Shown here piece after piece: positions 7,572 to 13,165 of a stretch of DNA of 15,811 nucleotides. The stretch comes from Elusimicrobiota bacterium (GTDB taxonomy: Bacteria; CAYTYR01; UBA6262): contig PMCA01000020.1 in NCBI GenBank assembly GCA_003153935.1, forward strand, positions 21,236 to 37,046, in the 5' to 3' direction. The notes beneath the pieces are model-generated. The model did not search any database. It saw only the letters and a program-made list of their open reading frames with translations, and had not been told where the DNA came from. How positions within the stretch are numbered: position 1 is the stretch's first letter; every line of letters starts with the position of its first letter. A program made the translations under genes and the position numbers.

Positions 7572-7601
7572 TTGCATAACGATTAAAATATGTGATATAA
7601 G
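7572..7601 (+). promoter_or_regulatory. Possible extended -10 promoter for the leader and receptor operon
   Basis: TATAAG at 7596-7601 (5/6) is preceded by TGA (TGn). TTGCAT at 7572-7577 is a weak -35 with an 18-base spacer. It lies directly after the upstream terminator, and initiation would be near 7608, at the foot of the leader stem-loop. Confidence 0.45.
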
Positions 7602-7711
7602 TAAATCAGCTACAATTATTCAACCAGACGAGGAGAATATAATTGTCCAGCCTGTTTACTAATTATGATGAATTGCCGATTTTGGCGCGGGCCAAGAGTC
7701 GGCTTTTTTTT
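7601..7711 (+). ncRNA. Structured leader ending in an intrinsic terminator (candidate attenuator or riboswitch)
   Basis: ACAATTAT at 7612-7619 pairs with ATAATTGT at 7639-7646. Outside it, CAG 7607-7609 can pair with CTG 7652-7654 and GTAAA 7601-7605 with TTTAC 7655-7659. The 19-base apical loop carries AGGAG at 7631-7635. A terminator hairpin follows at 7675-7703. No consensus that I know (cobalamin, FMN, TPP, c-di-GMP, preQ1, fluoride, guanidine) fits. The upstream terminator and this one bracket an RNA of about 100 nt that could be a leader or a free small RNA. The foot of the stem may lie upstream of the transcript start. Confidence 0.45.
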
Positions 7712-7723
7712 ATTGCTAACTGA
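7643..7723 (+). CDS. Candidate 26-residue leader peptide (TTG start) running through the terminator
   Basis: AGGAG at 7631-7635 sits seven bases before TTG 7643, which opens 26 codons ending at TGA 7721-7723. An in-frame TAA directly precedes the TTG, so the frame cannot start earlier. The predicted peptide begins MSSLFTNYDELPILARAK. It has no run of one regulatory amino acid, although leucine and aromatic codons are common. The terminator hairpin (7675-7703) and its T run lie inside the reading frame, so a translating ribosome would melt it. It may be a regulatory peptide, a remnant of a gene, or chance. It is separate from the binding-protein gene, which starts 32 bases later. Confidence 0.35.
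   Translation: MSSLFTNYDELPILARAKSRLFFIAN
7675..7711 (+). terminator. Intrinsic terminator or attenuator before the receptor operon
   Basis: GCCGA 7675-7679 pairs with TCGGC 7699-7703. The stem continues through TTGGC/GCCAA around a GCGG loop, with one wobble pair and a bulged G, and is followed by eight T. It lies within the 5' leader of the gene starting at 7756, so it can act as an on/off point for the four-gene operon. Confidence 0.8.
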
Positions 7724-7755
7724 AGTAAAAGCAAATTATTTATGGTGAGGTGTCA

Positions 7756-8697
7756 ATGTCATTAAAAACAATTTTACGGATCTTTTTGATTTCAAGTGTT
7801 TTACTGATAATTTGTTTTAATCCACTGCGAGCCGCGGACCGGGTGGTCGTCTCCGTTATTTATTCCGCGGATATCGAGCCTTATCAATTATGCTGGGAAG
7901 GTTTTAAAACATTTTTAGGCGGAAAAAACGTGGCGATCTGGGTCTCCAAATATAATTTGAAGGAACAGACCCCGGAAAAGATAATCCCGCAGATCAGCGG
8001 GGAGAAACCGCAGTTGATCTTCTGCCTCGGTACCAAGGCGGCCAGTCTGGCCAGGTTAACCTTTAAGGAGATACCGATAATTTATGCCCTGGTCCTGGAA
8101 CCGGATGAGGTAAAAGATTCGAATATGACCGGCGTGCTGATGGATATTCCGGCCAAAATGAAAATGGAAGAAATAAAAAGGATCCTGCCGGGCCGCCACA
8201 GCATGGGGATCATATATTCGGAAGCCGCCGGTACTCAGGCGGTGGAACTGGTGCAAACCTGCATGGGATTAGGGTTGAAAGCCGTGGCTAAACGGGTGTC
8301 ATCGGAAAAAGACCTGCCCGAAGCCGTGCAATCTATGAACGATAAGATAGATTGTTTCCTGATGGTGCCTGATCCCAAGATATATTTCCCGCAATCGGTA
8401 AAATACCTGCTGGCGGAAAGCATGAAGGATAAAATTCCCGTGGTTGGCCTGTCCAGGTATTACACCAAAGATGGAGCCTTACTGTCCTTTGACTGCGATT
8501 ATCAGGACCTGGGCAGCCAGGCCGGGGAGATCGCTCTGAAGGTGCTGGACGGCGCCAAACCCAAGGATATAACCCCGGTACTGCCACGCAAATTGAATTA
8601 TTCATTAAATACCTCAGTGGCGGATAAATTAGGTATCAAAATGGACCCGGAAATAGTAAAGGGAGCGACTTACATATATGATGAAAATAGCAAATAA
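7756..8697 (+). CDS. Periplasmic substrate-binding protein, PF04392 type (copy 1)
   Basis: A 313-residue exported protein; the signal peptide ends after LRA at about residue 24. The body matches the ABC-transporter substrate-binding family PF04392, the group that includes TrpX-like proteins. It opens with VVSVIYSADIEPYQ, and further on has GEKPQLIFCLGTKAA, IIYALVLEP, NMTGVLMDIP, FLMVPDPKIYFPQSVKYLL and GALLSFDCDYQDLG. The two-lobed periplasmic fold binds a small ligand. ATG 7756 is preferred to GTG 7750 because GGTGAGG at 7744-7750 is then correctly spaced. It is about half identical by eye to the protein at 10893-11822. No permease or ATPase gene is in the window, so a sensory or capture role is as likely as transport. 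The TonB-dependent receptor begins 17 bp downstream. Confidence 0.85.
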   Translation: MSLKTILRIFLISSVLLIICFNPLRAADRVVVSVIYSADIEPYQLCWEGFKTFLGGKNVAIWVSKYNLKEQTPEKIIPQISGEKPQLIFCLGTKAASLARLTFKEIPIIYALVLEPDEVKDSNMTGVLMDIPAKMKMEEIKRILPGRHSMGIIYSEAAGTQAVELVQTCMGLGLKAVAKRVSSEKDLPEAVQSMNDKIDCFLMVPDPKIYFPQSVKYLLAESMKDKIPVVGLSRYYTKDGALLSFDCDYQDLGSQAGEIALKVLDGAKPKDITPVLPRKLNYSLNTSVADKLGIKMDPEIVKGATYIYDENSK

Positions 8698-8714
8698 AAA
8701 AGGAGGTATGCAGA

Positions 8715-10871
8715 ATGGCCAAGAAGTCATTAATTTTTTTGTTAGCGTTGATAACCGGCTTGACTGTTAGCACGATGGTGCTGGCTCAGCCAGCGGCAGA
8801 ACAAACCGAAGAGGAGCTGTTGTTCACCGATAACGTTACCGGCGTGACCAAGAGGCTGGAAAAAACTTATGAAGCGGCGGCTAATGTAACCGTTATTCCC
8901 GGAAAATTTCTGGAAAGATATGCCATCAGGAACATCAATGACCTGTTCGAAGTGATCGAGGGTGGTTGGCATACATACAAAGGACAGGATGAAGTCTTGG
9001 TATTGAGAGGCGTTTCCGGCTATGCCAATGACAAGATCTTGTTCCTGTATGATGGCATGCTTTTCCCGACATTTTTGGGGTTAGGCGAGAACAACTGGCC
9101 GAACACGTTTGATGATGTTGAAAGGATCGAGGTCATCAAGGGTCCTAATACCTCAATTTGGGGCGGTCAGGGAACTCAAGGCACCATCAACATCGTGCAC
9201 AAAGGCGCCGAGCAGTTCCAGGGCCTGGCTACCAGCTTAGTGGTTGGTAAGAATGCCATGGCTCGCTACAACATCAACTACGCGCAAATGCCGTCCCCCG
9301 ACTTAAGTTATCAATTCTTGGTGAACTCCACCTACTACGAGGGTGCGACAAAATATATAGAAGAATGGGGTGGGTATAGCTTCAGGAAACTGGATGGGCA
9401 TACCGCGGCTAATCCCTTGCCTGATTACCAGGTATTCGCCAACATGACCTACAAGGATTTCACCGTTGCCTACCGGCGTTTGGAATCCAGGACGGACCGT
9501 CATAATATCAGCGCGCAAGATTCTATAATCCGCGTGGAAAACTATTGCGACGACCTGAACATCCTGATAAAGAAACCGGAATATTGGAAGAATATCGATT
9601 GGAACACTACAGTCAGGTTCAATAATTTTTACCAGATGTATGATGTATTTAATCCCGATGCCGCGGGTGGCGGTTATGAAATGAAAACCGAGAAAAGATA
9701 TGAAGTTGATAGCAATGTGGATATGAAGCCGATCGAACCGTTGGACATCGTGCTCGGCACTCAGGCTGGGGTATGGAGCCCTCAAGGTTCCGGGCCTACC
9801 GGTTCGTGGGATCCAGCGACCAGGAATTGGGACCCTAATGTCCCGGGTTCAGGTAATTTTGTTGATCCGCCGGAATTCCTTCCCACCTTCACTGAAATGG
9901 GTAATGACATTGCCGCGATTGAAGGTTACATAGACGCGAAATACCAACTGCTCGATAACCTCAGCGTAACCGGCGGCGGACGTTATGTCGGCGAGTTCAA
10001 TCCCGGCGATCAGCACCGTGACGCTCGTGAGAAACTGCATCAGTTCTTCCCGAAATTAGCCGTGGTGTACAAACCGGTGGGGAATCTTTATATAAAAGGT
10101 ATCTATCAGCAAGGGTTTACCAGGCTGAACACTTTTGAAAGATATTCGGAATGGAACAACATTGACTTGAGAGGCACCCAAAAGGCCACCACGGCTGAAT
10201 CTACGGAATTCGTGGTTGACTACCGGCCGATCAAGAATATGAAAGTGCTGGCCAGCTATTACCAGGAGATACTGTATGATTTTGTCAACTTTGTGTACAC
10301 CAGCCCTGCTGGCGTAGGGTGGCCAACGCTGGCTCCTGGATATTTACGCGGTTTCTTCAACGTGGGTGACCACCAGGCGCATGGTATCGAGGCTAATGTT
10401 TCCTATGATTGGAGAAATATGGGCGGATTCATTTCCGGCAGCCAACTGCTGAAGAACCGCATTGCCAATGCCCCGGCCAGTCTGTTAGGCGGTTCAGGCG
10501 TGATCGATACCGAGACTGACGCCAATTTCAACAAAGCGGCTGTGCCCAGATGGAACATGTCTCTCGGCGGATACTATGATATCACCAGTAACTACAGCGT
10601 ATCCGGTATCTATAAGATGCACGGTAAACTGCAGAACCGCGGCAGCGATGATCCTAATGAACCGGGTTGGAGCGGATATACCTGGGTAACCGGCGGAGAA
10701 CTGGATGTATCAGCTACAGCCAGGAACGTCGGCATCCGTAACCTGAACCTGACCGCGCTGGTTAAGAACTTGAATAACGCGGTTTATTATACCGGTAGCT
10801 CGATGGACCCGGGACATGCTGAACAAGTTAATCCTCAGTATTACGAAGTAAAGGCCAGTTATCTCTGGTAA
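8715..10871 (+). CDS. TonB-dependent outer-membrane receptor
   Basis: A 718-residue protein with a signal peptide (cleavage after VLA near residue 24). The plug domain occupies about residues 50-165: VTVIPGKFLERYAIRNINDLF, VLRGVSG, ILFLYDGM, then VERIEVIKGPNTSIWGGQGTQGTINIV, a very typical plug ending. The rest is a beta-barrel of alternating aromatic and polar strands ending in a C-terminal tryptophan (VKASYLW), as needed for barrel assembly. Such proteins import scarce ligands (siderophores, cobalamin, metals, glycans) using TonB energy. The ELLF stretch near residue 35 resembles the N-terminus of other receptors of this class, but I cannot point to a sure TonB box. AGGAGGT at 8701-8707 is an ideal ribosome-binding site. 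The receptor lies between two paralogous binding proteins, which suggests a shared ligand. TonB, ExbB and ExbD are not in the window. Confidence 0.93.
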   Translation: MAKKSLIFLLALITGLTVSTMVLAQPAAEQTEEELLFTDNVTGVTKRLEKTYEAAANVTVIPGKFLERYAIRNINDLFEVIEGGWHTYKGQDEVLVLRGVSGYANDKILFLYDGMLFPTFLGLGENNWPNTFDDVERIEVIKGPNTSIWGGQGTQGTINIVHKGAEQFQGLATSLVVGKNAMARYNINYAQMPSPDLSYQFLVNSTYYEGATKYIEEWGGYSFRKLDGHTAANPLPDYQVFANMTYKDFTVAYRRLESRTDRHNISAQDSIIRVENYCDDLNILIKKPEYWKNIDWNTTVRFNNFYQMYDVFNPDAAGGGYEMKTEKRYEVDSNVDMKPIEPLDIVLGTQAGVWSPQGSGPTGSWDPATRNWDPNVPGSGNFVDPPEFLPTFTEMGNDIAAIEGYIDAKYQLLDNLSVTGGGRYVGEFNPGDQHRDAREKLHQFFPKLAVVYKPVGNLYIKGIYQQGFTRLNTFERYSEWNNIDLRGTQKATTAESTEFVVDYRPIKNMKVLASYYQEILYDFVNFVYTSPAGVGWPTLAPGYLRGFFNVGDHQAHGIEANVSYDWRNMGGFISGSQLLKNRIANAPASLLGGSGVIDTETDANFNKAAVPRWNMSLGGYYDITSNYSVSGIYKMHGKLQNRGSDDPNEPGWSGYTWVTGGELDVSATARNVGIRNLNLTALVKNLNNAVYYTGSSMDPGHAEQVNPQYYEVKASYLW

Positions 10872-10892
10872 CCGAAAAGATTGAGCGGTGAA

Positions 10893-11822
10893 ATGAAGAT
10901 AAGGGTCATTCTTCTAAGTTGTATTATAGCGTTAATAACCTGGAACCAGTGCCTGGCAGCAGACCGGGCACTGGTTTCCGTTATTTACTCTTCTGACATT
11001 GAGCCATATCAGCAGGCCTGGTATGGCTTTAAGGCGTATTTTGACGGTAAGAAGACAGCGTTGTGGTCAACCAAATACGTCTTAAAGGAACAAACCCCGG
11101 AAATCATCGTTGCCAAGATCAAGGCGGAAAAGCCTGACTTGATCTACGCTTTGGGAACCCGGGCCGCAAACCTGGCCCAAGAATCCCTCCGGAATTTCCC
11201 CGTAGTCTATGCCCTGGTGCTTAATCCGGAAAAAATGGAAGGGGACAATATTACCGGTGTCCTGCTGGACATACCGGCCATGACCGAACTGGAATCGATC
11301 CAGCGCATCTTCCCCGAGATCAGGAAGATCGGCGCCATTTACTCGCCCGAATCCACGGTCAGGGTGGAGGAAATATCGCAGGCCTGCAAAGAACTGGGCT
11401 TGCAGTTGATCAAGAAAAAAATAGATGACGAACGCCAGTTAACCGCGGCACTCTCCGATCTGACCTGGCAGATAAACTGCCTGTTAATGATACCGGACAC
11501 CAAGATCTACTTCCCGCAGACAGTTAAATATCTGCTTTTAGAAAGCTTGAGACAGAAGTTCCCGGTGATAGGATTATCCAAACTGCATACCAAAGCCGGG
11601 GCGTTACTGTCGATCGATTGCGACTATAACGACCTGGGACGGCAGGCGGGCGAGCTGGCCGTCAGGATCATTAATGGTGAAAAACCTTCGTCGTTGACTC
11701 CTCTCCACCCGCGCAAAATAAATTATTCGCTTAATCTTAACACGGCCAGTCGTCTGGGCATCAATTTCTCTCCACAAGTCATCAAAGGAACCGAAGAAAT
11801 CTTCGGCGAGACGGAAAAATGA
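10893..11822 (+). CDS. Periplasmic substrate-binding protein, PF04392 type (copy 2)
   Basis: A 309-residue exported protein (signal peptide to about residue 23, ending CLA) and a paralogue of the 7756-8697 product. Shared blocks include VSVIYS-DIEPYQ, LKEQTPE, the EKP-LI--LGT stretch, YALVL-P, KIYFPQ-VKYLL and P-K-NYSLN near the C-terminus. Conservation is close to 60% in the first 70 mature residues and lower in the middle. The pair probably arose by duplication, with divergence at the ligand cleft or partner surface. ATG 10893 is chosen because it gives a normal signal peptide; TTG 10881 in frame would add four residues but has no better ribosome site. The stop overlaps the next start (ATGA at 11819-11822), coupling it to the HD-GYP gene. 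That coupling makes it the best candidate for the direct periplasmic partner of the sensor. Confidence 0.85.
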   Translation: MKIRVILLSCIIALITWNQCLAADRALVSVIYSSDIEPYQQAWYGFKAYFDGKKTALWSTKYVLKEQTPEIIVAKIKAEKPDLIYALGTRAANLAQESLRNFPVVYALVLNPEKMEGDNITGVLLDIPAMTELESIQRIFPEIRKIGAIYSPESTVRVEEISQACKELGLQLIKKKIDDERQLTAALSDLTWQINCLLMIPDTKIYFPQTVKYLLLESLRQKFPVIGLSKLHTKAGALLSIDCDYNDLGRQAGELAVRIINGEKPSSLTPLHPRKINYSLNLNTASRLGINFSPQVIKGTEEIFGETEK

Positions 11823-13165
11823 GATTTGGCATCGACAAAAAAATTATAACACTGGTGACCCTGGCCATAGTTTTGCTGGGTGTTTCCTTTAGTTATTATT
11901 TCATTAGCCAGGAAAAGAAAGCCCTGCTGCTGGAGCTGGACGAGCGGGCCAACACTTTGCTGAAAAGCATGATCACCAGCTGTGAATATCCCGTGCTGAT
12001 CAACGACCTCGATTCGTTGTCCAAAATAGCCAACGGCACCATGCAACAGAAGGACCTGGTCTCCTGTGATATTGAGAATAAATATGGAAAAGAACTGTTT
12101 AAAGCGGGCGACATGAAGAGCGTCGATTCCAGGATTTACACTGGATCGATCCTGACGGAGAAACAAAAAACCGGCGGAGGAGAAGACCTGATCCTGGGTA
12201 CCGGGCCACAGGAAAAGGAGACCGAAAGCATCGGTAGTATCCGTATCGCGCTCAGCCTGGTAAGCCTGGATAATAAACTGGTCCAGGCCAGAAGGACCAT
12301 AATTATTATCGGGCTGATAGGCATTCTCCTGGTTTCATTGGCCAGTTCCTGGCTCATCCGCTACGTGCTAGGCCGGCCGATAGACGAACTGGTTCTGGGT
12401 ATTCGTAACATTTCCAGCGGTAACCTGGGTTATAAAGTGCCGATAAATACCAATGACGAGATAGGCCTGCTGGCTGATTCTTTTAATAAAATGGCCACTG
12501 ACCTGGAGAAGGGCACAGTCTCCCGCAAATACCTGGAATTACAGGTGGATGAAAGGACCTTTGAGTTAAGGAACAGCATCCTGAAAATGCGTAAAGTGAT
12601 GGACGGCATCACCCATGCCATGGCGATGACCCTGGAAATGAGGGATGCCTACACGGCTGGACATCAGCGGCGGGTCGCCAATCTGGGTTGCGCCATTGCC
12701 AAGGAGATGAATTTAGGCGAGGACCAGATCGAGCAGATCCGTATTGCCGGTATTCTACATGACATCGGCAAGATCTCGGTACCGGCGGAGATACTGAGCA
12801 AACCTTCAAAGCTGGATAAAAATGAGTTTAATCTCATGAAAACCCATTCCCGTACGGGCTATGATATATTGAAAAACATAGATTTTGAATGGCCGATAGC
12901 CGAGATCGTCCTGGAACATCATGAGAGGATCAACGGGTCCGGCTATCCCAATGGCCTGAAGGGTGAGAAGATACTGATCGAAGCCAAGATCCTGGGAGTA
13001 GCCGACGTGGTAGAGGCTATGGCCAGCGATCGTCCCTATCGCCCGGCTTTAACCCTTAAGGAAACGCTTGATCACATCGCTCAAAACAAGGGGATACTCT
13101 ATGATTCCCAGGTAGTGGACGCCTGCCTGAAAATAGTCTCCCAACCCGGCTTCAAGTTCGAATAA
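11819..13165 (+). CDS. Membrane HAMP/HD-GYP protein, probable c-di-GMP phosphodiesterase
   Basis: A 448-residue protein with a membrane segment at about 6-27, a periplasmic sensor of about 130 residues, a second membrane segment near 160-182 and a HAMP domain to about 236. A short coiled-coil follows, then an HD-GYP domain (about 260-445). Visible catalytic motifs are H-D-I-G-K with H314-D315, the H367-H368 pair, and NGSGYP with G375-Y376-P377. These are the metal-binding and signature residues of phosphodiesterases that hydrolyse cyclic di-GMP to GMP, so the enzyme looks active. The periplasmic part resembles small PAS/Cache-like sensors. It overlaps the second binding-protein gene by four bases, which suggests that the loaded binding protein or the receptor state modulates the enzyme; this link is inference. 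No GGDEF domain lies in the window. Confidence 0.92.
   Translation: MRFGIDKKIITLVTLAIVLLGVSFSYYFISQEKKALLLELDERANTLLKSMITSCEYPVLINDLDSLSKIANGTMQQKDLVSCDIENKYGKELFKAGDMKSVDSRIYTGSILTEKQKTGGGEDLILGTGPQEKETESIGSIRIALSLVSLDNKLVQARRTIIIIGLIGILLVSLASSWLIRYVLGRPIDELVLGIRNISSGNLGYKVPINTNDEIGLLADSFNKMATDLEKGTVSRKYLELQVDERTFELRNSILKMRKVMDGITHAMAMTLEMRDAYTAGHQRRVANLGCAIAKEMNLGEDQIEQIRIAGILHDIGKISVPAEILSKPSKLDKNEFNLMKTHSRTGYDILKNIDFEWPIAEIVLEHHERINGSGYPNGLKGEKILIEAKILGVADVVEAMASDRPYRPALTLKETLDHIAQNKGILYDSQVVDACLKIVSQPGFKFE

Follow-up and report, generated by a model that had tools for sequence, protein, structure and literature searches.

The operon and its products

The window, the whole stretch of 15,811 nucleotides that was analysed, belongs to contig C34 of a 1.75-Mb MAG from a group which we take to be the candidate phylum UBA6262 of GTDB. 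It contains a single same-strand operon, SBP1-TBDR-SBP2-HD-GYP, encoding a TonB-dependent receptor (TBDR), a binding protein (SBP) on either side of it and a membrane protein with an HD-GYP domain (Table 1). The spacing is 17 nt between SBP1 and the TBDR gene and 9 nt between the TBDR gene and SBP2, and the SBP2 and HD-GYP genes share 4 nt. ORF coordinates and Pfam assignments agree with the initial annotation, which had described four tightly packed genes with the last pair overlapping, and the ORF list bears out its statement that no permease, ATPase or TonB/ExbBD gene is present among the four. One ExbD gene is located elsewhere in the genome.

Table 1. Position and main characteristics of the operon genes and leader (window coordinates)
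Feature	Position	Strand	Characteristics
Operon leader	about 7572-7750	+	Promoter-like site and intrinsic terminator before SBP1
SBP1	7750-8697	+	Start GTG 7750 or ATG 7756 (the latter chosen in the initial annotation); signal peptide; PF04392, E=6.6e-32
TBDR	8715-10871	+	Pfam Plug, 2.1e-12; TonB barrel, 1.5e-15
SBP2	10881-11822	+	Start TTG 10881 or ATG 10893 (ATG likely); PF04392, E=1.3e-30
Cache-HAMP-HD-GYP membrane protein	11819-13165	+	Pfam HAMP, 3.7e-13; HD_5, 3.1e-38

SBP1 and SBP2 show 50% identity and are sisters in the tree, from a duplication inside UBA6262 (100/98); a TBDR, a sensor kinase or both lie near their closest relatives outside this group. Pfam assigns PF04392 only to both proteins, and neither matches the YfiR family, PF13689. 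The AF2 model of SBP2 (pLDDT 90.7) matches the structures 6hnj (Z 29.1), 3lkv (Z 26.7) and 3lft (Z 25.9). YfiR structures are absent among the 50 structural matches listed for SBP2, so the fold link between YfiR and PF04392 proteins used below rests on the literature (PMC4655355). Among plasmids, SBP2 had only remote PF04392 matches, at 22-30% identity. The TBDR shows plug and barrel as its only Pfam domains; it has no N-terminal STN signalling domain, and TBDR signalling of the FecA/FecR type was rejected on this basis. When named genome contigs were searched with the TBDR, all matches came from UBA6262 MAGs.

The product of the last gene contains two transmembrane helices (about residues 8-30 and 157-184) on either side of some 130 periplasmic residues that contain a Cache/PAS-like sensor domain (about 31-156); HAMP (184-230) and HD-GYP (268-432) domains follow. 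According to Pfam, HD_5/HD-GYP is its only output and a GGDEF-EAL output is absent. Alignment with 4MCW confirmed the catalytic motifs as intact, as initially annotated: H282, H314 D315, K318, H343, H367 H368, GYP375-377 and D396. The Glu of the DPETQNH stretch of 4MCW aligns with Tyr278, so the metal site may differ in the window protein, which is a predicted c-di-GMP-degrading enzyme. The model of the sensor domain is of moderate confidence (pLDDT 67.8, 6 sequences) and resembles extracytoplasmic PAS/Cache domains: 4u64, of the LapD-like CdgS9 (Z 11.1), and 4ywz, of WalK (Z 10.4). Since GGDEF gives 10 matches in the genome, c-di-GMP synthesis is probably possible in this organism. The HD-GYP query gives 25 matches in the same 1.75 Mb, an apparent excess over GGDEF.

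Conservation of the operon and a sister cluster in UBA6262

The gene order is kept in two family-level relatives, G001 (L043/L053) and G003 (L044/L051), and a gene order unique to this genome, which by the initial annotation would have refuted its reading, is thus excluded. Both relatives show the order [TBDR]n-SBP1-TBDR-SBP2-HD-GYP, with additional TBDR copies upstream (two or three copies in each genome). In the window, G001 and G003, tRNA genes and argG/argH-like genes are located downstream of the operon.

The leader of the window shows a promoter-like site, TTGCAT-N18-TATAAG, and then a terminator at about 7675-7711, just before SBP1, with a fold z of -2.2. In the relatives, too, a terminator hairpin precedes the operon genes (L043 18290-18136, minus strand, z -5.6; L044 3020-3198, z -4.7), and their leaders are alike, with a small hairpin and GTATC/GATAC pairing around the terminator. 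All three genomes show a promoter-like site, a terminator within about 100 nt and then the first gene of the operon. The leader looks like a candidate attenuator or riboswitch; a known riboswitch was rejected, since Rfam gave no match for the leaders of the window or its relatives.

The genome of the window contains a second cluster (L040), which shows an SBP gene, a gene encoding a sensor-HAMP-MCP protein and a TBDR gene. The TBDR of this cluster is 78% identical to the window TBDR, and the sensor domain of the MCP shows 26-33% identity to that of the HD-GYP protein. The SBP-MCP-TBDR cluster is kept in four genomes: that of the window, that of L052 (the same genome as L053), L054/L059 and L055/L056. 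Across both cluster types of UBA6262, the window TBDR shows 64-81% identity to the other TBDRs. In relatives, genes encoding a CBM11 protein, a CUT1-type sugar SBP with two permeases and a GH2/GH72-like protein are located downstream of the TBDR gene of the MCP cluster, which makes a carbohydrate a plausible ligand. Since the same module drives an MCP, and hence chemotaxis, in the same genome, the two clusters suggest that movement and c-di-GMP are both under the control of one ligand class.

Distribution of related loci

The 19 genomes of one additional phylum were searched with the SBP profile along with 386 others; a further search of 400 genomes gave largely the same set again. Eighty regions were taken, and their genes were identified by HMMs derived from the window genes and their relatives; 75 of these regions, partly non-independent because several come from one genome and two from the family of the window, had an SBP call. 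The regions were picked on SBP similarity alone, so their neighbours are free of selection bias. The 75 loci are distributed as follows: 27 show both a TBDR and a sensor, 13 a TBDR only, 15 a sensor (three of them with an ATPase gene near), six an ABC ATPase without TBDR or sensor, and 14 none of these partners. For the first 57 loci, positions within two genes of the SBP gene hold a TBDR in 31 of 216 cases, versus two of 195 at five or more genes, and the positions directly next to it hold a HAMP protein in 28 of 113, versus one of 195. The four-gene arrangement of the window is real and conserved, and the TBDR-SBP-sensor neighbourhood recurs in many taxonomic families of unrelated bacteria. 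With the order conserved in relatives and the enrichment seen across taxa, a chance neighbourhood of unrelated genes is hardly conceivable. The 14 loci without partners and the 13 with a TBDR and no sensor indicate that some of these SBPs may act otherwise.

Among 62 SBP neighbours scanned in L057-L116, six belong to PF12974 (PhnD-like binding proteins); this second type of SBP accompanies the neighbourhood. Two pairs of related SBP loci show neither TBDR nor sensor: L081 and L082 (about 7-9 kb) have a conserved partner of 271 aa, and L087 and L093 have a conserved set of proteins of 470-490, 216 and 402 aa.

Among 31 adjacent sensors, Pfam identifies 20 with HisKA/HATPase, eight MCPs, and one each with a SpoIIE phosphatase, PAS only and HD_5, the last being the window protein. 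Eleven of the 31 contain sCache_4. CHASE8 matches one of the 31; the window sensor gives no match and its MCP paralogue a weak one (13.5 bits). The initial annotation had proposed a search for PF04392 genes next to TBDR genes and HD-GYP or GGDEF membrane proteins: adjacency to TBDR and sensor genes does recur, but the HD-GYP output is confined to UBA6262, the other sensors being mainly histidine kinases or MCPs, and no HD-GYP or GGDEF output was found behind a related sensor outside UBA6262 among the loci examined. The window sensor shows 38% identity to the sensor of a histidine kinase from another phylum (L058; 181 residues, E=2e-38 in a single comparison), which points to a swap of the output domain. 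The sensor of a HAMP-PAS protein from a third phylum (L057) is likewise 38% identical to the window sensor. Each of these two sensor genes overlaps its own SBP gene by 4 nt, with a TBDR near. As judged from the sequences, the outputs (histidine kinase, MCP and HD-GYP) are exchanged behind a homologous sensor domain.

The ABC-linked SBPs form one supported clade (98/91, one change) that contains neither SBP1 nor SBP2. Six of the 75 loci pair the SBP gene with an ABC ATPase gene and lack both TBDR and sensor, and an ABC permease and ATPase are not conserved beside the genes studied here, an arrangement that the initial annotation had named as evidence against its own reading. The SBPs could still serve a permease and ATPase encoded elsewhere, the HD-GYP protein sensing alone through its Cache domain. 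The name of PF04392 refers to ABC substrate binding, small ligands are often bound directly by Cache domains and the genome has other ABC systems (BtuCD-like in L045 and CUT1-type near L040). Such orphan import is nevertheless improbable: besides the separate clade, 16 of the 41 adjacent same-strand SBP-sensor gene pairs overlap, and no PF02653 permease is found anywhere in the genome of the window, for which reason import through an unlinked permease of this family was rejected.

Two paralogous three-gene sets of the same genome, L042 171-2522 and L041 10296-12638 (both on the minus strand), each encode two membrane proteins and a PF04392 protein placed with the ABC-linked clade. One of the membrane proteins carries a zincin-like HEAGH motif in L042; the other, of 249 aa, has no Pfam match. 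The PF04392 gene of the second set (L041 10296-11288, minus strand) is interrupted by an in-frame TAG stop, which may mark a pseudogene, recoding or a mistake in the assembly.

It is also conceivable that the TBDR and SBPs scavenge their ligand with a further inner-membrane transporter, and that the sensor mainly regulates this system, signalling being secondary. The 13 loci with TBDR and SBP and no sensor fit such uptake control, and the two or three TBDR copies of G001 and G003 suggest varied ligand capture. Uptake control seems quite improbable, since no inner-membrane transporter is conserved beside the genes and the outputs, MCP and HD-GYP, are behavioural and not transcriptional.

A proposed sensory relay and its relation to known systems

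The four genes probably form an envelope-spanning sensory relay and not an importer, that is, SBP-gated signalling fed by the TBDR. This circuit, already proposed in the initial annotation, is the likeliest reading; the contact between SBP and sensor and the supply of ligand by the TBDR are the steps that we infer. The TBDR would carry the ligand into the periplasm, where the PF04392 proteins would catch it, most directly SBP2, whose gene overlaps the sensor gene. SBP2 would then bind the HD-GYP protein at its Cache-like domain in the periplasm; the second transmembrane helix and HAMP would relay the signal, and c-di-GMP breakdown by the HD-GYP domain would change. The proposal allows either the ligand-loaded or the empty SBP as the active form. 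That SBP2 may dock on the Cache domain and set HD-GYP activity is held by analogy with NspS-MbaA, YfiR-YfiN and the PF04392-type SBPs found near MCPs. Proximity of SBP and sensor genes can mislead, as in the case of AgtS and AruS, for which no interaction with the SBPs encoded nearby was found (PMC11113362).

SBP-gated control of a c-di-GMP enzyme is known from NspS-MbaA of Vibrio cholerae, which, like the window, combines a periplasmic binding protein without importer and a membrane c-di-GMP enzyme (PMC8967002); in the window, too, an SBP gene adjoins the gene of a membrane c-di-GMP enzyme and importer genes are absent. The systems differ in that NspS-MbaA has a polyamine SBP of another family and a GGDEF-EAL output, whereas the window shows PF04392, HD-GYP and a TBDR. 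To our knowledge, no TBDR belongs to the NspS-MbaA set.

YfiBNR of Pseudomonas aeruginosa likewise has a membrane c-di-GMP enzyme, the cyclase YfiN, whose periplasmic domain is the target of a periplasmic protein, YfiR, with a fold like half of a PF04392 SBP (3LFT/3LKV; PMC4655355). In contrast with the window, YfiR is a single-domain protein (PF13689), the output is GGDEF and the outer-membrane partner is the lipoprotein YfiB instead of a TBDR. A variant of the relay with the opposite sign takes YfiR as its model: empty SBP on the Cache domain would hold the HD-GYP in one state, and ligand would lift it off. Repression of YfiN by YfiR, a fold relative of PF04392 SBPs, through the periplasmic domain (PMC4655355) speaks for this variant, but the operon has no YfiB-like partner and the sign cannot be read from sequence, and the variant is considered unlikely.

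Apart from these two systems, the relay proposed for the window resembles other SBP-gated sensors, LuxP-LuxQ and XylFII-LytS, and single-domain PF04392-like SBPs occur near MCP genes (PMC10805632); unlike the window, none of these descriptions includes a TBDR or a c-di-GMP phosphodiesterase. TrpX/TrpXYZ-type ABC binding proteins share PF04392 and the two-lobed fold (3LFT, 3LKV, CD0873) with SBP1 and SBP2, which differ from them in lacking a permease or ATPase and in standing apart from the ABC-linked clade. Of the PBP-clan domains, a review of c-di-GMP sensing names just SBP_bac_3 as studied (PMC8846402). The initial annotation knew of no named system with this exact layout, and the open-access literature, where absence is weak evidence, likewise gave no description of a TBDR-SBP-sensor set. 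The principle of SBP-gated signalling is known, and the set stands apart from every known system through its SBP family, its receptor coupling and its output.

The loci may, tentatively, represent a widespread modular class of sensors in which a TBDR is dedicated to supplying an SBP-gated sensor instead of importing nutrients, and in which the output (kinase, chemoreceptor, phosphatase or HD-GYP) can be exchanged. If so, double-membraned cells would pay energy to sample large or scarce ligands solely for signalling. For most c-di-GMP enzymes and many sensor kinases the ligands are yet to be found, and the recurrent set of TBDR, orphan SBP and sensor would offer a direct way to such ligands. 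It would also offer a reason why PF04392 "ABC" proteins without transporter are numerous.

Two NCBIfam families show a weak relation to the window proteins: the curated TBDR family NF053590 (TOL_0244 TBDR) gives 64.8 bits with the window TBDR, versus a cut-off of 645 bits, and the HAMP-kinase family NF053592 (HK near YfiR-like) gives 31.2 bits with the window sensor, versus a cut-off of 194 bits. From their names and accession numbers, both families would belong to one YfiR-based system.
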